From positions 1 to 64,000 of the forward strand of contig JBFMDV010000028.1 of the NCBI GenBank assembly GCA_040753875.1: a stretch of DNA of 64,000 bases, written 5' to 3'. How positions within the stretch are numbered: the stretch's first letter is position 1; each line of letters opens with the position of its first letter. Shown here in pieces: positions 31,456 to 43,257 of this stretch. The notes under the pieces are model-generated. The model had not been told where the DNA came from and made no database searches. It saw only the letters and a program-made list of their open reading frames with translations. The stretch is from Candidatus Zixiibacteriota bacterium (GTDB lineage Bacteria; Zixibacteria; MSB-5A5; GN15; FEB-12). Position numbers and translations under genes: made by a program.

Positions 31456-31530
31456 TGACCGTACGTTTCTCCTGTTAGTCCTCACGGCGTACGACCATCG
31501 ATGTTGACATTCAGAATGAGGAGTCGTTCC

Positions 31531-33477
31531 ATGAAAAAAGCGTTCCTTGGTTTCGTGTTGGCCTGTTTAGTACTCACCCTCGTGGGAGAATCCCGAGCCA
31601 TCGCACCGCCGACGAACATCCGCGTCACCACTATCCCGCAGTTGAACAACGAAGAACAGGTGTGGATCTGTCCAACCGACAGCAACATCATCATCGCCAA
31701 CTGGCGGGATTTCCGACTTGGTTACAGGCAGATCGGTATCGGGCGTTCGACCGACGGCGGCCTGACCTGGAACGACTCCCTGATAAACAACTCTATGCAG
31801 TACTATACGCAGCAGTTTCCCTTCGAGGGCTGGCAGTCCGACCCGACGATGTCGGTGAACAGCAGCGGTCACTTCTACATTTCAGCGCTCGATTTTCAGC
31901 CGAGCGGGCCTGGTTCGGTGATCGCGTTTTACAAATCGACCGACAAGGGGATCTCCTGGACCGGACCGGTGATTCATGCCCTACCGGGTCCATGGTTCGA
32001 GGATAAGCAGTTCACAACTGTCGACCGAACCAGTGGATTTAATGGATATCTGTACTGTTCATGGACGCGCTTCCCCGATTTCGACCCGGACCAGATAGCC
32101 TTTGTCCGGTCAACGAACGGCGGCGCCTCGTTCGACCCGGCGGTGATAGTCGGCCCGGTTCAGACATCGACCGGCTGCGGCGGTACGCGAGTCGATGCCG
32201 GCCAATTTTCCATTCCAGTGGTCACACCTAACGGGGACGTGCACGTATTCTGGCAGGGTATCGCACTTGATTCCGGGACTCTCTGCACCGGCCGTGATGT
32301 TGTCAAGCATGTCAAGTCCTCGGATGGGGGCATCTCATTCACGTATGAGGACACTATATTGTCGGTGTCAGGCTGGACGACGGCCAACGGCGGCATTCAG
32401 ACCTATTCGCAGCCGGTCGCCGACGCTGATATCACGAGCAGCCCCTTCTCAGGCAATCTGTATGTGTGTTTCACGAATATCGGTCCCGAGGACACCCAGG
32501 GCCGGAGCGACGTTGACTTTGTCCGCTCCACCGATAACGGCGCCACCTGGTCCGCCCGTTATCGAATCAATGATGATTCCAGTTCCGAGGAGATCGACAA
32601 TTTCCATCCGTGGCTGATCTGTAACGAGGAGGGAGTGTTGGCCACCATCTTCTACGACCAGCGTAATGATCCGCCCGCGTACTATGAGTTTGATCTGTCT
32701 GCGGCCTATTCATTCGATGGCGGCCTGAGTTTTACCACCAACCACCGCATTTCGAGCGTGTCGTCATCTCCGGATTTCCTGAAAGCGCTCCCCCCCGTCC
32801 GGTTCTGGCAGGACAATGGGGATGGCACCAAATCTCCGACCACCATGAGCCCGATGGCCGGCAGACTGGGCGAGTACATCGGCGTCACTGCTTTTCACGA
32901 CAAGATAAACGCGGTGTGGACCGACACCCGCAACGGCAACTCCGAGGTGTATACTGCCAACTGGTATCTTCCGATCCTGGAGCCACGGCTCGTGAACCCG
33001 CCCAACCAGTCACAGCCTGGCAACCAGCCTCTGTTTTCATGGGCCACGGCGTGGAAACACAACGACGACAGGTACCGGCTTGAGCTTTTCGACGCAACCG
33101 GTGCTTTGGTCTCTTCGGTACTGCTGGACACCACGTTTCACCAGTTTGGAGCACCGCTGACCGACAGCGTCTACACCTGGCGTGTGAAGGCGTTCAAGAT
33201 CTCAACCGGTGACAGCTCTGGCTATTCTCCGGTGTGGAAGTTCCGCAATCCGTGTTGCCTTGGTTTGCGGGGCAATGTTGATGGCGACCCCATGGACATT
33301 GCGGACATATCCGACCTCAGCGCTATGGTCGACTATCTCTTTGCGGGTGGGTCGATCACATCGTGCCTCGACGAGGCCAACACCGACGCAGATATTGCGC
33401 AGACGGTAGACATATCCGACCTGACCGTCGTGGTGGACTACCTGTTCACGGGCGGCAGTCTGCCTGCCTGTCCATAA
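31531..33477 (+). CDS. Secreted Asp-box (sialidase-like) protein with dockerin-like tail
   Basis: This 648-residue protein has a signal peptide (residues 1-24) and then a propeller with about five Asp-box (BNR) motifs: RSTDGGLTW, KSTDKGISW, RSTNGGASF, KSSDGGISF and RSTDNGATW. A fibronectin/Ig-like domain (about 490-580) and a dockerin-like tail (GDPMDIADISDLSAMVDYLF, then VDISDLTVVVDYLF) follow. Asp-boxes shape the fold of sialidases but do not prove that activity, and the sialidase arginine triad was not identified. GAGGAG lies before the chosen ATG; an ATG ten codons upstream lacks a site. The protein is probably a surface glycan-binding or glycan-degrading protein. Confidence 0.82.
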   Translation: MKKAFLGFVLACLVLTLVGESRAIAPPTNIRVTTIPQLNNEEQVWICPTDSNIIIANWRDFRLGYRQIGIGRSTDGGLTWNDSLINNSMQYYTQQFPFEGWQSDPTMSVNSSGHFYISALDFQPSGPGSVIAFYKSTDKGISWTGPVIHALPGPWFEDKQFTTVDRTSGFNGYLYCSWTRFPDFDPDQIAFVRSTNGGASFDPAVIVGPVQTSTGCGGTRVDAGQFSIPVVTPNGDVHVFWQGIALDSGTLCTGRDVVKHVKSSDGGISFTYEDTILSVSGWTTANGGIQTYSQPVADADITSSPFSGNLYVCFTNIGPEDTQGRSDVDFVRSTDNGATWSARYRINDDSSSEEIDNFHPWLICNEEGVLATIFYDQRNDPPAYYEFDLSAAYSFDGGLSFTTNHRISSVSSSPDFLKALPPVRFWQDNGDGTKSPTTMSPMAGRLGEYIGVTAFHDKINAVWTDTRNGNSEVYTANWYLPILEPRLVNPPNQSQPGNQPLFSWATAWKHNDDRYRLELFDATGALVSSVLLDTTFHQFGAPLTDSVYTWRVKAFKISTGDSSGYSPVWKFRNPCCLGLRGNVDGDPMDIADISDLSAMVDYLFAGGSITSCLDEANTDADIAQTVDISDLTVVVDYLFTGGSLPACP

Positions 33478-33951: not shown

Positions 33952-36900
33952 ATGCACAAGAGATTTCTCATCATCTTTATCACGCTGGCGGTGGTGTCGC
34001 TGGTGCTGTCGACTGTGATGGCGGCCGACCGACCGACGGAGAAGGTGGAAAAGCGCGTTCTTCGGACCAGCGTGTATGCGCTGCCGACACCGCTTCAGGG
34101 GGCAGATGAATGGACTCCGGGTATCGAGTCCAAAGAGACGCCCGGGGCATCACTGGGATCACTCTCTCCCTCGGCTTCGCCGGGCGAGGTCCTGTTCACC
34201 AGCTACCGGGACCAGCAGCACAACTCGACCCAGGGTCGTATGAACGACTGGCGCCCGGCGCCGCTCCCGAACGGCCCGTACGCACATTTCGGCGCGGCCT
34301 TCTTGCCTGCACCGAGCTTCACCGCAGCGCAGTACGCCTATCAGGTTTGGGATCCGGTCTCCGGTTCCTATCCAAATACTGGTGGTATCGGCTGCCGAGT
34401 ACAGGGAGCCGGCGAGTATGGCGTGTATGTCAACCTCGCGGTTGACCCGGACGATGGCGGTGTCGTAATCGCCGGTCATGACCACCATGGCTCAGTACCG
34501 TATCATACCCATACGTATTGGGACGGTTCGCCGATGGCCTGCTTCTTCGGAGCCGGTTCTGCTATTCCGGACACAATGGCTCAGAGAATCAGTCTCGGCA
34601 CGAGCACGCAACTTATCTGGCCGAAACTCGAGTACCAGAAGGTCGGCGGTACTGCCGTGACTCACCTGGTCAGCTATGAAGCAGGTGATCCGGTTCAGTG
34701 GGGCGCCATTGCGTACTTTCGGAAAGTGGGCAACAAGGGGGCCGGCACCTGGACCGGCATTCTGGTAGACAGCGCTCTGAACGGCGTTTCTCCGACAGTG
34801 GCGTCGTCGCGCACTTCACAGAAGGTGGCGATCTGCTGGACGATGAACACGGCTCAGGGGCTGACTGAGGGTCCCAACCAGATCGATAACGACGTCTTCT
34901 ATAAGATGTCAACCGATATGGGCGCCACCTGGGGCACCAAAGTCAACGTGACCAACTACGTGCCGAATGTTGACGGCTACCGTGCGTATGCGGAACTGTC
35001 GGCCTTGTTTGCCTCCGACGACAAGCTGCATATCGTGTGGCCGGCCCGCGTATGGCCGGGGAACGCCTATGCACCGGATGGCTCACTTGGCTACGATTGC
35101 CGTATCTTTCACTGGTCGGAGAATTTCCCGGCAGTGTACAGTACAGTAGCGACGGCCGAATGGGATCAGATCAACTGCCTGGGAGGCGCGTGGCAGTTGA
35201 ACCAGGCAAAGGTGACGTTTGGCGAATGCGCTGGTCGTTTCTACACCATCTGGACGCAGTTCAACGATATCCCTGCCGGGGTCGATGACGACTGCGCGTC
35301 CGCAGCTTCCGATGCCGGTTCATCGGCCAACGGCGACATCTGGATGGCGGTTTCGAGCGATCTCAATGGTCTCACCTGGGACCAGCGCCGGAACCTGACA
35401 AATAGCTATACGCCGGGTTGTGACTCGGTTGGATTCGGCGGTGTTTGCGAAAGCGATGGCTGGTCGTCAATCGCTCGCTTCGGCATGGACCTGGATTCCC
35501 TTACCGCGACCTACGGCGCGCTGACCTGGCCGACCCCGGCCAAGACAGCCGTGTTCCCGAGCTACACCGGCTCCAAGTACATTCACATGCAGTACATTAA
35601 CGACAAGTTCCCGGGTAACATAGTCGTACCGGAGGGAATTTTCACGTTGAACCCGGCGAAGTGGATCATGCTGCCGTGTGTTGACCCGGTGCCGAACCCG
35701 ATCCTGGCAATCCGGCCGACGAGCATCGCGTATCCTGAGTACATCAAGCACGGCACGCAGCGTGTTGAGACGATCACGATGGAAAACGTGGGGAACACGA
35801 CCCTGACGGTTGATTCTATCACGAAGACCCAGCTGACGCCTGTAAGCCCGAATGCCATCAACATTTCTACAGCCGGTCCGGTCACGATTCCGGCAGGCAT
35901 TGGAAATACTGCTACCATGACGGTAATACTGAACCCCGGCGGAGTTATCAACAGCCCGGGGACGACGATTAATCTAACTGGTGCAGTGACATTCTGGTCG
36001 AACTCACCGGCCCCGTTTGACGTGCAGGACTACAAAATTGCTCTGCCGATCACCGATACCGTGGTTCCGCCGGTTTTCGACACCATCATTACCAATACAG
36101 GAAGGTGCAAACTGGTGGTATCATCAAATGGCAATCTGGGACATGAAGGTGCCGGGAAGGTAAACCTCGATTTCTGGTCGACAGATTGCGACACGGTCGA
36201 TTCTATCCCAGGGTCGACGAATGTCTATCTGTTCGATGCCTCACCGGTGATTCTGCACCACAAAACCAGCCCCGACACGGTCATTGCGAGCTGGGCGATC
36301 TTCGGCTCCAGCATCGCGGATGCCAACGTGTTCAAGCCAGTCGCGGACACGGGTCACGCACCGCGTGACACCGTAATTGCCGGTGAAAATGGGTTCATCA
36401 CGGGAACATTCGCCACTGTCGACACGGTTGTTTACGTCGGTTCGGGGAAAATCCACATCATCATCACCAAACCCGACGGTACGCAGATACACATTCAAAT
36501 CGAAAAAGTGTATCTTGCACCTGGTGTTGTATCGGCTACCGGCCTGACATTTGGTGAGGCCTATGATATCGACGTTCCAGCCGATACAGGATCCTATAAT
36601 CTTGGCGGCTTTGATGCCTCTCGCAATCTCGTGTACCAGCAAGGGTACGAGTACAAATCCGAGGTCGGCAAAGAGTGCATCAAGAACAACCGTCGCTGGG
36701 CCGGTGCGGCAATGCTCGGCTATTACACGAACCACGACCTCGATCTCGACACCTGTGCTAACAAAACTGACATGTACGGCGGCTATACCAATAGAAACGA
36801 TAGCTTCGTGTACCCTAATAACGGATTCGTTCCCAAAGAGATGTGGGACAACATGTCCAATCCGGGCTTCTCGGCGGAGGCGGGTCCCACCGACCTCCAT

Positions 36901-37278
36901 ACGGTACTTACGTTCAAGCACAACATCAGCCTTGCTGCTGCCGATACGTTCTACTTCGTAACGGCAACCGCAACCATTTACAACGGTACCTTAGCAAACT
37001 TGCAGACTGCAATTGACGACGCCAAGGCCTGGTATATGGTCAACTATCGCAACTGTACCGGCTGCTGCAAAGGCACGACCGGAAATGTTGACGGCGATCC
37101 CGGTGATCTTGTCGATATTTCCGATCTGTCCGCTATGGTTGACTACCTGTTCTTTGGCGGCGCGATCTCGACTTGCGCTGAGGAGAACGATGTAGACAAA
37201 TCGTTGTCTGTGGACATATCGGACCTGCAATTGCTGATCGATTTCCTGTTCTTCGGCGCTTCTTTGCCGAACTGTTAA
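33952..37278 (+). CDS. Large secreted Asp-box protein with dockerin-like tail
   Basis: This 1108-residue protein has a signal peptide (residues 1-24). A propeller-like region of about 550 residues with two clear Asp-boxes (MSTDMGATW, SSDLNGLTW) follows. Next comes an immunoglobulin-like domain of the HYDIN/ASPM type (YIKHGTQRVETITMENVGN, about 600-700), a beta-rich region, and a dockerin-like tail (GDPGDLVDISDLSAMVDYLF and SVDISDLQLLIDFLF). The tail is nearly the same as that of the Cys-rich protein at 7596. GAGGAA precedes the ATG. It is a probable surface protein whose ligand is unknown. Confidence 0.82.
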   Translation: MHKRFLIIFITLAVVSLVLSTVMAADRPTEKVEKRVLRTSVYALPTPLQGADEWTPGIESKETPGASLGSLSPSASPGEVLFTSYRDQQHNSTQGRMNDWRPAPLPNGPYAHFGAAFLPAPSFTAAQYAYQVWDPVSGSYPNTGGIGCRVQGAGEYGVYVNLAVDPDDGGVVIAGHDHHGSVPYHTHTYWDGSPMACFFGAGSAIPDTMAQRISLGTSTQLIWPKLEYQKVGGTAVTHLVSYEAGDPVQWGAIAYFRKVGNKGAGTWTGILVDSALNGVSPTVASSRTSQKVAICWTMNTAQGLTEGPNQIDNDVFYKMSTDMGATWGTKVNVTNYVPNVDGYRAYAELSALFASDDKLHIVWPARVWPGNAYAPDGSLGYDCRIFHWSENFPAVYSTVATAEWDQINCLGGAWQLNQAKVTFGECAGRFYTIWTQFNDIPAGVDDDCASAASDAGSSANGDIWMAVSSDLNGLTWDQRRNLTNSYTPGCDSVGFGGVCESDGWSSIARFGMDLDSLTATYGALTWPTPAKTAVFPSYTGSKYIHMQYINDKFPGNIVVPEGIFTLNPAKWIMLPCVDPVPNPILAIRPTSIAYPEYIKHGTQRVETITMENVGNTTLTVDSITKTQLTPVSPNAINISTAGPVTIPAGIGNTATMTVILNPGGVINSPGTTINLTGAVTFWSNSPAPFDVQDYKIALPITDTVVPPVFDTIITNTGRCKLVVSSNGNLGHEGAGKVNLDFWSTDCDTVDSIPGSTNVYLFDASPVILHHKTSPDTVIASWAIFGSSIADANVFKPVADTGHAPRDTVIAGENGFITGTFATVDTVVYVGSGKIHIIITKPDGTQIHIQIEKVYLAPGVVSATGLTFGEAYDIDVPADTGSYNLGGFDASRNLVYQQGYEYKSEVGKECIKNNRRWAGAAMLGYYTNHDLDLDTCANKTDMYGGYTNRNDSFVYPNNGFVPKEMWDNMSNPGFSAEAGPTDLHTVLTFKHNISLAAADTFYFVTATATIYNGTLANLQTAIDDAKAWYMVNYRNCTGCCKGTTGNVDGDPGDLVDISDLSAMVDYLFFGGAISTCAEENDVDKSLSVDISDLQLLIDFLFFGASLPNC

Positions 37279-37352: not shown

Positions 37353-37474
37353 TAGCGACTGAACAGTGGCAGGGGAACGTCGTTCGGCATCAGACATTTT
37401 CTCTGTTTTTTTTTGAACCTGTGCCGCTATTTTCCGATTATAGGGGCGATGTGCTGAATGAAAGGTTTGACAAC

Positions 37475-37807
37475 ATGCTCGTAGTCACGGATAGCGCCAG
37501 CTGCGAACTGAAGAAGGTATTCGAGACGCCCAAGGCTAAACACGCCAAGTTGGTAATCTATTTTCAGGGGGCCGGCTGAAACGGGCCCTCATTGGGCTTG
37601 GCTCTGGATGAGTCAGTGAATGGTCTTGAGAGACTGGAATCCAATGGCATCACCGCATATATCGACCCGGGTCTTCGCGAATTCCTCGAAGGGTACGGCG
37701 GCGTGAATATCGATTACGTGACACGTGACTTTGGCACCGGCGGATACATTGTCACAACCGGAAATCGCGCAGGCGGCGGTTGCAGCGACGACTGCAGTTG
37801 TTCGTAG
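37475..37807 (+). CDS. HesB/IscA-like protein, probable selenoprotein (TGA at codon 35)
   Basis: This is one continuous frame of 110 codons with a TGA at 37577-37579. The sequence around it, IYFQGAG-TGA-NGPSLGLALDE, fits the HesB/IscA motif in which the TGA position is the first conserved Cys (G-x-G-C-x-G-P-x-L-x-L-A-L-D-E). The frame continues for 75 codons after the TGA and ends in GGGCSDDCSCS, as HesB-like proteins do with a Cys cluster. HesB-like selenoproteins are known in bacteria and archaea. A 7-bp hairpin (CGGGCCC-tcatt-GGGCTTG, 37582-37600) starts two bases after the TGA. AAAGG lies before the ATG at 37475. The likely role is Fe-S cluster handling or a redox function. Alternative: a Cys-to-stop mutation. 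Confidence 0.75.
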
Positions 37808-37855
37808 CCGAGTATCCGCGAACTCGCCAAGCACCTTGCCCCCCAGGTAGTTGTT

Positions 37856-38058
37856 GTAGGGCAGAACCCCTTTGTGGCTCTGCCATTGTCTTGTTGGCGG
37901 AACCAGAAACGATTCCGCCCTACGGTAACCACTGTAACTGATAATCACGCAGGCACATCAGCAGGCGTAGGGCAGAACCCCTTTGTGGTTCTGCCATTGT
38001 CTTGTTGGCGGAACCAGAAACGATTCCGCCCTGCGGCAGCTAATAATCACACAGGCAC
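37856..38058 (+). repeat. Tandem repeat, 111-bp period, two copies
   Basis: Copy 1 spans 37856-37966 and copy 2 spans 37967-38058. Each holds the palindromes GGCAGAACC/GGCTCTGCC or GGTTCTGCC and GGCGGAACC/GATTCCGCC. Only a few differences separate the copies, so the duplication is recent. It lies between the HesB-like gene and tRNA-His. Confidence 0.88.
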
Positions 38059-39325: not shown

Positions 39326-41185
39326 ATGCATCAATGGACCATGCCACATTCGTCCGGGGGCCGGCAATGTCGTGGGTCAGCACTCACATTCGCGTTTCTG
39401 GGGCTCGTGTTTCAGGCGGTAGTGGTGACCGCAGCCGAACCCGATGCCGCTGTGCCTTCGGCCAACCAGCCGCTCACCGTGGACTGGTGCCGGACCCAAC
39501 AGATATATGATGCAAAAAATGTGGCCAAGGCACCCACCAACCCCGATGCCTGCCCGACCAATGGTACCTGCGATATAGCAGCCAATCGCAACGCGTGGAT
39601 ACCGGCTGTCGACCAGCCGATGACGACTCTGCGGCTTTATTTCCATATTCTCCGCATGGATGACGGCAGCAGTGCCGCCACGACCCCCGAAATGCTGGCC
39701 TTGCAGGTGGCCAATCTCAACAATGATTTTCTTCCTTCCCGGATCCAGTTCGAATATCAGTGGCGCTATGTCAATTCGACGGCATACCGGTCCCTTGCCG
39801 ATGCCGAGATGGATGCCATGAAGATGGCGTTTGCGCTGGCAGCCGATTCGCAGATCAACGTATTCGTCTCTTACGTAGAGGGCTCTTATTCATTCGGGAC
39901 CTTCCCGTGGGACCCTGATGCGCTTACGTCGCGGGGCGGCATTGTTATGACAACGGGGCACTTTCAATCGGTCCAGAGTGCCCTGGCTCACGAGGTAGGT
40001 CATTGTCTCGGGCTGTGGCACACATTCCATGGCGTGAGCGAGGTAAGCCAATGCGGCTCCTGCTACGAACCGGCCGGCACAACTATCGGCGATGTCCTGG
40101 GGGACCTTTGCCAGGACACCGATCCCACACCCACCAACTACTCCTGCTCTCCCCCGCCCGGTCCGGACCCGTGCAGCGGCCAGAGTTGGGGACCGACGGA
40201 TGTCCAGAATATCATGGGGTATTCCGGGGATGCCTGCTGGACTGAATTTTCCACGCAACAGAAGGGACGGATGCACTGCTGGGTTGACGACCGGTTGATG
40301 ACCTGGGTGTCGGGAGTCCGTTTCACCGCCGTCAATACGTTTGGACCGGCGCCGCTGTCGGTAGATTTCAGCGGGATTTCCGCCAAGGTCGTCAATGCGT
40401 GGCAGTGGAATTTTGGAGACGGCAATCTCTCATCGGAACAGAATCCAACACACGTGTATGGTCCGGGGCAGTTCGATGTTTCCCTGTCGATACAGGCGAC
40501 CGATGGCGACTATTCCGCCGTCCAATCCGACTTTGTCTCTGCCTACGCCGATTCGATGATCGGTCCGGTTATATCGGTTCAGCCGAGCCAGGATATCCGG
40601 GTGGATGTATACGCGCGCAATTATCTGCCGCTTCGCGAGCTCAAGATCCCGTTCGCCTGGGGCGGGCCTTTTGGCCTCACATACGATTCGGCCAATACCA
40701 GCGGCCTGCGAACCAACTATTTCGAGCAGCAGCAACTCATCAGCTATGATCCATCCAATAAGCGCGCGACCTACTTCCTGCGAAGTTCTTCCACCGGCGC
40801 GCTGCCTGACCTTGTCCCCGGCTCGGGTCCGGTCGTGAGTCTCTATTTCTCGGTGCCAGGCCTGCTGTTCGGAGGGCCGAACATGATCTCGTTCGACGGC
40901 TATTTGTCATACTTGCCGACCTTCGTGGCAAACACCGGCACGTACAATCCGGTCGTGCTTGCGGCCACGATCAGCAAATGCCGTCCCGGCGATGTCGACA
41001 ACAACGGAGTCGGCCCTGATATTTCGGACCTTTCGTTTCTGGTGGATTACCTCTTTTTCTCCGGCCCGACTCCGCCGGTCACCAGCCAGGCCGATATCGA
41101 CGGATCCGGCAGTATCGATATCGCCGATCTGACAATGCTCCTCGATTTTCTCTTCCACAACGGGTCTCTGCCCGGATGTGTGTGA
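39326..41185 (+). CDS. Secreted M43-like metalloprotease with PKD domain and dockerin-like tail
   Basis: This 619-residue protein has an N-terminal signal (about residues 1-38). The metalloprotease domain carries HEVGHCLGLWH (His222, Glu223) and a Met-turn-like NIMGYSGD, as in pappalysin/M43 enzymes. A PKD domain (FGPAPLSVDFSG to HVYGPGQFDVSLSI, about 340-415), an unassigned beta domain of about 130 residues (IRVDVYARNYLPLRELKIPF) and a dockerin-like tail (GDVDNNGVGPDISDLSFLV) follow. The last three modules are shared with the papain-like protease downstream at 41455. AAGGG precedes the ATG at 39326. It should be secreted and cleave extracellular protein. Confidence 0.87.
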   Translation: MHQWTMPHSSGGRQCRGSALTFAFLGLVFQAVVVTAAEPDAAVPSANQPLTVDWCRTQQIYDAKNVAKAPTNPDACPTNGTCDIAANRNAWIPAVDQPMTTLRLYFHILRMDDGSSAATTPEMLALQVANLNNDFLPSRIQFEYQWRYVNSTAYRSLADAEMDAMKMAFALAADSQINVFVSYVEGSYSFGTFPWDPDALTSRGGIVMTTGHFQSVQSALAHEVGHCLGLWHTFHGVSEVSQCGSCYEPAGTTIGDVLGDLCQDTDPTPTNYSCSPPPGPDPCSGQSWGPTDVQNIMGYSGDACWTEFSTQQKGRMHCWVDDRLMTWVSGVRFTAVNTFGPAPLSVDFSGISAKVVNAWQWNFGDGNLSSEQNPTHVYGPGQFDVSLSIQATDGDYSAVQSDFVSAYADSMIGPVISVQPSQDIRVDVYARNYLPLRELKIPFAWGGPFGLTYDSANTSGLRTNYFEQQQLISYDPSNKRATYFLRSSSTGALPDLVPGSGPVVSLYFSVPGLLFGGPNMISFDGYLSYLPTFVANTGTYNPVVLAATISKCRPGDVDNNGVGPDISDLSFLVDYLFFSGPTPPVTSQADIDGSGSIDIADLTMLLDFLFHNGSLPGCV

Positions 41186-41454: not shown

Positions 41455-43257
41455 ATGTTGAGTCGCGAGCAGTATCGGTGCCCGGCGTTTGTCGGGATTC
41501 TATTTCTCATTGTGTTCATGATCGGCGCGAATGCTCCGGTGTTCGGCCAGTTGACAAGCGACGACATAGCCAGGCTGAAGGAGCAAGGCGAAAAAGAGGG
41601 GTGGACGTTTATCGTCAAAGAGAACGAAGCCACTCAGTATCCTCTCTCCCAGATCACCGGCTTAAAAGTGCCGGATGATTGGAGGCAGAATGCGAAGGTC
41701 TATTCGCCGAAGATCGATCCTGCCACCCTGCCGCCATCGTATGATTGGCGTTCGATAACGGCCATGCCGCCGATTCGTAACCAGGGTGGGTGTGGTAGTT
41801 GCTGGGCGTTTGCAACGGTGGGAGCGATGGAGTGCGCCATCAAGATCTACGATGACACCGTGGTCAACCTCTCCGAGCAATGGCTGGTGAGCTGTAATAA
41901 TCGCGGCTGGGGCTGCGACGGCGGTTGGTTGGCGTTTGATTTCTTTCAGTGGGATAGCGATCCGTGCAACGGTATCGGCGCTATTGCCGAAACGTCTTTT
42001 CCGTATGTAGCCGCCGACGTGGCCTGCAGTTGCCCGTATGAGCATCTGTATCGCATCGATTCCTGGGGTTTTGTCGACGGCGAATGGGTCATTCCAACTC
42101 CGGAGGCAATGAAGCAGGCGATCATGGAGTATGGTCCAATAGCGGTGTGTGTGTACGCCAACAGTGCTTTCCAGGCATATGGCGGCGGCATTTTCAATGC
42201 CTGCGAAAATCAGTGGATAAATCACGCCGTGGTGTTGGTCGGGTGGGATGATACTCAGGGCCCGGGCGGGGTGTGGATCATGCGGAATTCCTGGGGTCAG
42301 AGCTGGGGTGAAAGCGGCTATATGCGCATCCCGTACGGATGCTGCGAGATCGGATACGGCGCCGCGTGGATGGACTATTCTGGTGTCCGCTTGAGTGGTA
42401 CACCTACCTTTGGACCGGCGCCTCTTGCCGTCGACTTCACTGGTGTGTGCGGGCGGACCGTAAATTCATGGTTGTGGGACTTTGGAGATGGCTCCGGGTC
42501 GGACATGCAGAACTGCGCGCACAGCTACCAGCCGGGGATGTATAATGTGACGCTCACGGTGCAGACCCCGACCAAGCCGTACCAGGCACTTCGAGTCGAC
42601 TACGTATCCGTGTACGCCGACACTCTGAACGGTGGAACGCTGAACATTGAGCCGCGACAGAAGATTCGTGTCGATGTGTATGGGAGAAATTGCCTGCCTT
42701 TGAAAGAAATGACCATCCCGTTCACCTGGGGCGGACCGTTCGCGCTGACTCTCGATTCGGTGAGCACTGCCGGGCTTCGGACCGACAGCATGGAGACGAG
42801 ACAGTATATCAACTTCGATCCCTCTAACAGACGTGCTACCTATTTCATGAGGGCTTCAGCGAGCGGCGGTCCGCAGACGTTGGCGGCTGGAGCTGGTCCC
42901 GTATTGAGTATTTTCCTGACGGCACCGGGGCTGCTGTATGGAGGACCGCACACGATGTCTTTCGCAGGTTACGGCAATTACTCCCCTACTTTTCTTGCTG
43001 AGGCCGGCAGCTACACGCCTATTCTGTATGACGCCGTGCTTAACCGATGCCGTCCGGGTGATGTCGACGGCAACAGCATCGGTCCAGACATATCGGACTT
43101 GAGCTACTTAGTGGACTTCTTGTTCATGGGGGGTCCGCAGCCACCATCGGCGCCATCGGCGAATGTCGACGGTCAGGGCCAGGTGGATATTTCCGACCTG
43201 ACCTACCTGGCGGAATATCTGTTCATGGGAGGACCAGCACCTCAGGCATGCAGTTAG
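41455..43257 (+). CDS. Secreted papain-like (C1A) protease with PKD domain and dockerin-like tail
   Basis: This 600-residue protein has a signal anchor-like start (residues 10-32), a short pro-region, then a papain domain with YDWRS, QGGCGSCWAFA (Cys116), NHAVVLVGW (His257) and RNSWGQSWG (Asn278); the full catalytic set is present. A PKD domain (FGPAPLAVDFTG, about 315-390), the same unassigned beta domain as in the upstream metalloprotease (IRVDVYGRNCLPLKEMTIPF) and a dockerin-like tail (GPDISDLSYLVDFLF, VDISDLTYLAEYLF) follow. AAGGAG precedes the ATG. Bacterial C1A proteases of this build are secreted and degrade protein substrates. Confidence 0.92.
   Translation: MLSREQYRCPAFVGILFLIVFMIGANAPVFGQLTSDDIARLKEQGEKEGWTFIVKENEATQYPLSQITGLKVPDDWRQNAKVYSPKIDPATLPPSYDWRSITAMPPIRNQGGCGSCWAFATVGAMECAIKIYDDTVVNLSEQWLVSCNNRGWGCDGGWLAFDFFQWDSDPCNGIGAIAETSFPYVAADVACSCPYEHLYRIDSWGFVDGEWVIPTPEAMKQAIMEYGPIAVCVYANSAFQAYGGGIFNACENQWINHAVVLVGWDDTQGPGGVWIMRNSWGQSWGESGYMRIPYGCCEIGYGAAWMDYSGVRLSGTPTFGPAPLAVDFTGVCGRTVNSWLWDFGDGSGSDMQNCAHSYQPGMYNVTLTVQTPTKPYQALRVDYVSVYADTLNGGTLNIEPRQKIRVDVYGRNCLPLKEMTIPFTWGGPFALTLDSVSTAGLRTDSMETRQYINFDPSNRRATYFMRASASGGPQTLAAGAGPVLSIFLTAPGLLYGGPHTMSFAGYGNYSPTFLAEAGSYTPILYDAVLNRCRPGDVDGNSIGPDISDLSYLVDFLFMGGPQPPSAPSANVDGQGQVDISDLTYLAEYLFMGGPAPQACS

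Follow-up and report, generated by a model that had tools for sequence, protein, structure and literature searches.

The window, a 64,000-nucleotide stretch of DNA from a Candidatus Zixiibacteriota bacterium, almost certainly contains a gene for a HesB-like selenoprotein in which the UGA at 37577–37579 would be decoded as selenocysteine (Sec) by way of a SelB-type hairpin at 37600–37614. Since HesB-like selenoproteins are already known (TIGR01911, with the UxGP motif), the gene is a new member of that family. That it represents a new, divergent and phylum-wide branch is well supported, because the TGA and its RNA signal are kept in relatives and the signal is lost in Cys sister genes. Comparative pairing also suggests a recoding element made of two hairpins, and it is this element that may be new. 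A Sec-containing HesB/IscA subfamily is thereby placed across an uncultured phylum, in genes that a standard ORF caller splits at the TGA. The features concerned are listed here with the evidence for each.

37460–37465, + strand: Shine-Dalgarno-like GAAAGG, 9 nt before the ATG (sequence)
37475–37807, + strand: HesB/IscA-like gene, predicted selenoprotein (translation, NCBIfam matches, phylum-wide homologs, IscA fold)
37577–37579, + strand: TGA, predicted to be read as selenocysteine (first conserved Cys of the IscA/HesB motif, UxGP)
37585–37597, + strand: hairpin 1, probable accessory helix (wobble-position covariation)
37600–37614, + strand: hairpin 2, putative SelB-type SECIS apical stem-loop (comparative pairing, frozen codons, loss in Cys paralogs)

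The gene and its relatives across the phylum

The initial annotation had proposed a HesB/IscA-like selenoprotein whose frame is open on both sides of the TGA, and translation bears this out: 37475–37807 is open apart from the single in-frame TGA at 37577–37579. The read-through product has 110 residues (MLVVTDSASCELKKVFETPKAKHAKLVIYFQGAG-U-NGPSLGLALDES...GGGCSDDCSCS*), with Sec as residue 35 in the motif GAG-U-NGP and with C103, C107 and C109 in its Cys-rich tail. The UxGP signature thus reads U35-N-G-P within the HesB/IscA domain. Two NCBIfam models of selenoproteins match the product, IscA_HesB_Se (NF038090) over residues 1–104 at E 2.4e-14 and HesB_rel_seleno (TIGR01911) over nearly the whole length at E 9e-9, both below their curated cut-offs (53.5 vs 85 bits and 35.8 vs 66.35, respectively). 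The same two models match all ten relatives compared, at E<=0.01. Scores against the general carrier models are likewise under the cut-offs, at 34.3 vs 58.8 for TIGR00049 and, in a weak match, 18.2 vs 26.3 for Pfam Fe-S_biosyn (PF01521). Together with the Sec machinery of the host and TGA-bearing relatives free of decay, the NCBIfam matches support the proposed reading.

The family of HesB-like selenoproteins bearing UxGP is established (PMC1794560; PMC13188914) and known from methanogens, Deltaproteobacteria and Firmicutes (PMC1794560). PMC11097638 cites 75Se labeling and mutagenesis for the Methanococcus maripaludis member and states that its function is unclear. The Zixiibacteriota branch shares with TIGR01911/NF038090 proteins the Sec in place of the first conserved Cys in the HesB/IscA motif, the UxGP, the small single-domain build and the company of SelA/B/D and tRNA-Sec. 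It differs from them in its divergence below both curated cut-offs, in being nearly always of the Sec type within the phylum, and in having its own C-terminal Cys-rich tail and a tandem-hairpin recoding element. A literature search with limited coverage of subscription journals returned no report of selenoproteins in Zixibacteria.

All relatives found by sequence belong to Candidatus Zixiibacteriota. The nine loci of the first search all had TGA at the equivalent codon and an intact downstream part, and a profile search of 132 genomes of the phylum gave matches in 93, nearly all of the strong ones having a single TGA, located at the motif codon. After removal of duplicates there remained 80 distinct Sec-type genes, every one with TGA at the motif codon, and four Cys-type paralogs with TGC or TGT. 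Judged from these sequences, conservation of the TGA in 80 distinct homologs is far beyond chance. The alignment and the four Cys codons agree with the earlier claim that the TGA replaces the first conserved Cys of the motif. The part after it had been described as intact, and the protein indeed stays conserved downstream of the TGA in relatives from the phylum. The counter-scenario named at the outset, of related strains with TGC/TGT and decay after the stop in this one, does not apply: the relatives carry TGA, and no decay is seen downstream. The viral contigs searched contained no relative of the gene.

Each of the four Cys paralogs lies near a Sec copy (L062 in genome G082; L080, L082 and L083 in G062, G063 and G061), and their closest Sec relatives in the tree are neighboring or sister-genome copies, which points to at least two duplications with Sec-to-Cys replacement. 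These nearby Sec/Cys pairs in two lineages constitute a natural experiment for Sec-to-Cys replacement. Through such tandem pairs the role of HesB-like selenoproteins, so far unsolved, becomes open to experiment.

Predicted fold and function

An AlphaFold2 model of the protein (pLDDT 86) resembles IscA over 95–99 residues, with Z scores of 10.8–11.4 for entries 1s98, 1r94 and 1x0g, of which E. coli IscA (1s98) gives 11.4 and IscA with [2Fe-2S] (1x0g) 10.8; DsrR (2k4z) matches at Z 11.5. Sec35 occupies, in this predicted model, the place of the first ligand Cys of IscA. The likeness to IscA/ErpA/SufA thus comprises the predicted fold (Z about 11), the N-terminal and middle motifs and three Cys-type ligand positions. 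The protein departs from these carriers in having Sec for the first Cys (Cys35 in IscA) and UxGP for CSG, in the spacing of its C-terminal cysteines and in scores below the family cut-offs. The canonical CSG...CGC ligands are absent from it, their place being taken by U-x-GP and a different tail, in which 71 of the 80 Sec genes retain two or three Cys.

Elsewhere the host genome encodes a carrier of the ordinary Cys type (C36:78816, 121.7 bits), adjoined, as read from the ORFs, by a ferredoxin-like ORF and an Rrf2/IscR-like regulator ORF. Since such a carrier coexists in the same genome, the Sec protein would be a specialized paralog. We envision a product with the A-type-carrier fold in which Sec replaces the first cluster or metal ligand and the other ligands come from the C-terminal Cys motif, so that Sec35 and the tail cysteines may act as metal-cluster ligands or as a redox pair. 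A selenolate/thiolate Fe-S-binding or redox protein is the most likely product, a reading much less certain than that of a selenoprotein, and binding and transfer of an Fe-S cluster or iron would be expected of it if it acts as an A-type carrier.

Beyond the phylum, a plasmid of Cytobacillus oceanisediminis (NZ_CP062791.1, L121:1588) carries a HesB-like gene that contains a TGA and lacks annotation; it lies in an ars region with arsA, trxB, a phosphatase-family gene and arsR. A Priestia Cys homolog, annotated as 'adhesin', also lies beside arsA in an ars region. An Acetoanaerobium match (H11) was rejected as a Sec relative, as it carries Cys (TGT). The ars context of the Cytobacillus and Priestia genes would suit a protein that, rather than carrying Fe-S clusters or iron, handles metals, metalloids or thiols in redox chemistry, with Sec pairing with a tail Cys as a selenenylsulfide; the canonical Cys-type carrier, which would cover housekeeping Fe-S transfer, fits this as well. 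We regard this alternative as possible though the less probable one, as no ars genes recur next to the Zixiibacteriota genes and the fold and ligand positions are those of IscA.

Hairpins downstream of the UGA

The deep alignment of 80 distinct Sec genes, with matched Cys paralogs from the same genomes, makes the RNA requirement for Sec insertion readable. Hairpin 2 (GGCTC-TGGAT-GAGTC) has a five-pair stem (37600–37604 with 37610–37614) and a UGGAU loop (37605–37609), extended in most sequences by a sixth pair, 37599–37615; 25 nt separate the TGA from the loop. The rules for bacterial SECIS elements given in PMC13188914 are a distance of 16–37 nt from the UGA, a loop of 3–9 nt, a stem of at least 4 bp and a G in the first two loop positions, and hairpin 2 agrees with them in spacing, loop size, stem length and loop G. 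Its stem of 5–6 bp and its loop of 5 nt, in which positions 2 and 3 are both G, liken it to the elements described there, from which the present case differs by an additional short hairpin, with wobble pairs that covary, between the UGA and the SelB-type hairpin.

Across the alignment, 98.8% of cells in the five-pair stem are paired, with compensatory changes at three pairs, as in L095 (GGTTC/GAACC) and in L013 (GGCCC/GGGTC), the latter at the price of a Glu-to-Gly change. The codons that form the hairpin are nearly frozen synonymously (Ala GCT in 59/60, Leu CTG in 79/80, Glu GAG in 78/79, with Ser mostly TCA), and elsewhere in those genes GCT accounts for 18% of Ala, CTG for 30% of Leu and GAG for 32% of Glu codons. 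Loop position 2 is G in 78 of 79 distinct sequences. Pair counts came to 92.7%, compared with 87.5% when shuffled and at most 54% when slid. All four Cys paralogs have hairpin 2 broken or absent, L062 retaining a recognizable remnant (35 bits vs 68 for its Sec neighbor). The Cytobacillus plasmid gene has GGCTC-TGGAT-GAGCC at exactly the same distance from its TGA. Archaeal HesB-like selenoprotein genes, in contrast, have their SECIS in untranslated regions.

Taken alone, the hairpin is modest in energy (19 nt, MFE -7.5 kcal/mol). Energy filtering by crude bSECIS criteria proved too blunt, as it passed 7.7% of all TGAs in the window and only 18 of the 80 Sec genes. A model of the recoding region (R1) found this region as its sole match in the 3.29-Mb genome (E 4e-9) and no other host gene with the same element. 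No Rfam family matched 37400–37900 at E<=10.

The initial annotation had instead placed a 7-bp hairpin at 37582–37588/37594–37600 with the loop TCATT. This hairpin is present and its inner 4 bp are supported, but conservation does not extend to its outer pairs, which overlap hairpin 2; we therefore rejected it as the main SECIS and kept its 4-bp core as hairpin 1 (stem 37585–37588/37594–37597, loop 37589–37593). The remark that its loop lacks a G is correct for that hairpin; the next one, at 37600–37614, which had been missed, has the loop G.

The outer two pairs of hairpin 1 both join third codon positions and covary. Pair 37585–37597 ranks first among 43,956 column pairs of the gene alignment by Watson-Crick excess, and neither for 37585–37597 nor for 37588–37594 was the observed excess ever reached in 2,000 tree simulations (p<=0.0005); for four mispaired controls, p ranged from 0.13 to 0.96 on the Watson-Crick measure. 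Neither wobble pair forms in any of the four Cys paralogs. On this comparative evidence, hairpin 1 is probably a real accessory helix.

Set against this is the possibility that Sec insertion is real and the functional SECIS is the single hairpin at 37600–37614, the covariation of 37585–37597 being a by-product of phylogeny or of another constraint. RNAalifold predicts hairpin 2 only and not the helix of hairpin 1, whose middle pairs never vary because Pro (CC) and Gly (GG) codons fix them; the outer wobble pair is unformed in about 30–36% of sequences (18 of 50, or 36%), the count in an independent-pairs test is not extreme, and hairpin 1 is not formed in the Cytobacillus gene. Still, a by-product of this kind would have to put both wobble pairs above every tree simulation while sparing the mispaired controls, bring one of them to the top of all column pairs, and leave both unpaired in each Cys paralog, and we consider it the less likely reading. 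On balance we favor a picture in which the HesB-like selenoproteins of the phylum are a subfamily fixed for Sec and rely on a recoding element of two parts, the SelB-type hairpin and, ahead of it in the ribosome-entry region, a second short hairpin that covaries; the occasional Cys copies of this subfamily would stem from tandem duplications in which both hairpins were lost.

With two hairpins at work, SelB carrying Sec-tRNA-Sec would bind the UGGAU stem-loop at 37600–37614, placed as are other bacterial SECIS loops. The upstream helix at 37585–37597 may help recoding, for instance if it sets the spacing of the SelB hairpin, presents that hairpin or slows the ribosome; it lies near where the ribosome would open the mRNA when the UGA sits in the A site, and might there act as a spacer or cause a pause. 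The two-hairpin element is thus a concrete hypothesis on what bacterial Sec insertion needs besides the SelB loop.

Host selenocysteine machinery and genomic surroundings

A search of the genome for selA, selB, selC and selD had been proposed as a check, and absence of selB and tRNA-Sec from a complete genome as a counterargument. The host assembly (Candidatus Zixiibacteriota, 3.29 Mb, 39 contigs) is rated 100% complete and contains tRNA-Sec (C26:144710, above the cut-off, with anticodon TCA by ARAGORN), selB (C26:130601, 310 bits, over the cut-off), selA (C26:132499, 502 bits) and selD (C19:36270, 378 bits), so the counterargument falls away. The UGA at 37577–37579 would be decoded by this SelA/SelB/SelD/tRNA-Sec set, and Sec is presumably inserted in the host organism itself. 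The selD gene has one in-frame TGA of its own (CAG-U-ASK), and a formate-dehydrogenase-type gene (L130, G000:C10:21756–22505) has one in ARI-U-HSSTVASL, which makes at least two further probable selenoprotein genes. The TGA of L130, another probable selenoprotein of this genome, is followed by a hairpin. Across the phylum, selA is matched in 127 of 132 genomes, 116 of them over the cut-off. In genome G058, selA (L134, G058:C64:9741–11075) is interrupted in its matched part by an in-frame TGA, codon 324, which does not fall at a Cys position and is probably a sequencing error or nonsense mutation.

A lone in-frame stop in one genome would look the same if a HesB gene of the Cys type had become a pseudogene, suffered a nonsense mutation or been misread in sequencing, and the selA of G058 is one such probable error. 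This explanation is refuted by phylum-wide conservation and keeps a negligible probability: the TGA recurs in independent assemblies, always at the motif Cys and with the protein conserved after it, and the RNA signal is conserved with compensatory changes. Reassignment of TGA to a standard amino acid in the lineage would also leave the frame open across the codon, but is slighter still and refuted by the use of TGA as a stop, which ends 6 of 21 long ORFs in the window, while each of the HesB genes has a single internal TGA, placed at the motif Cys, and the Sec machinery is present.

No conserved neighbor was found across 90 loci, and gene neighborhood gave no functional clue; as neighboring genes differ between genomes, the gene seems to be stand-alone. 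In the window it is flanked by four secreted-looking proteins (31501–33477, 33952–37278, 39326–41185 and 41455–43257) with a common C-terminal dockerin-like repeat (GDVDG...DISDLSxLVDYLF), which suggests a common surface or cohesin-type anchoring system. Downstream, at 37896–37921 and 38007–38032, an interspersed palindromic repeat, GGCGGAACCAGAAACGATTCCGCCCT, lies inside a longer duplicated unit; it has 11 copies in the genome at up to 3 mismatches, compared with 0 for a reversed control.
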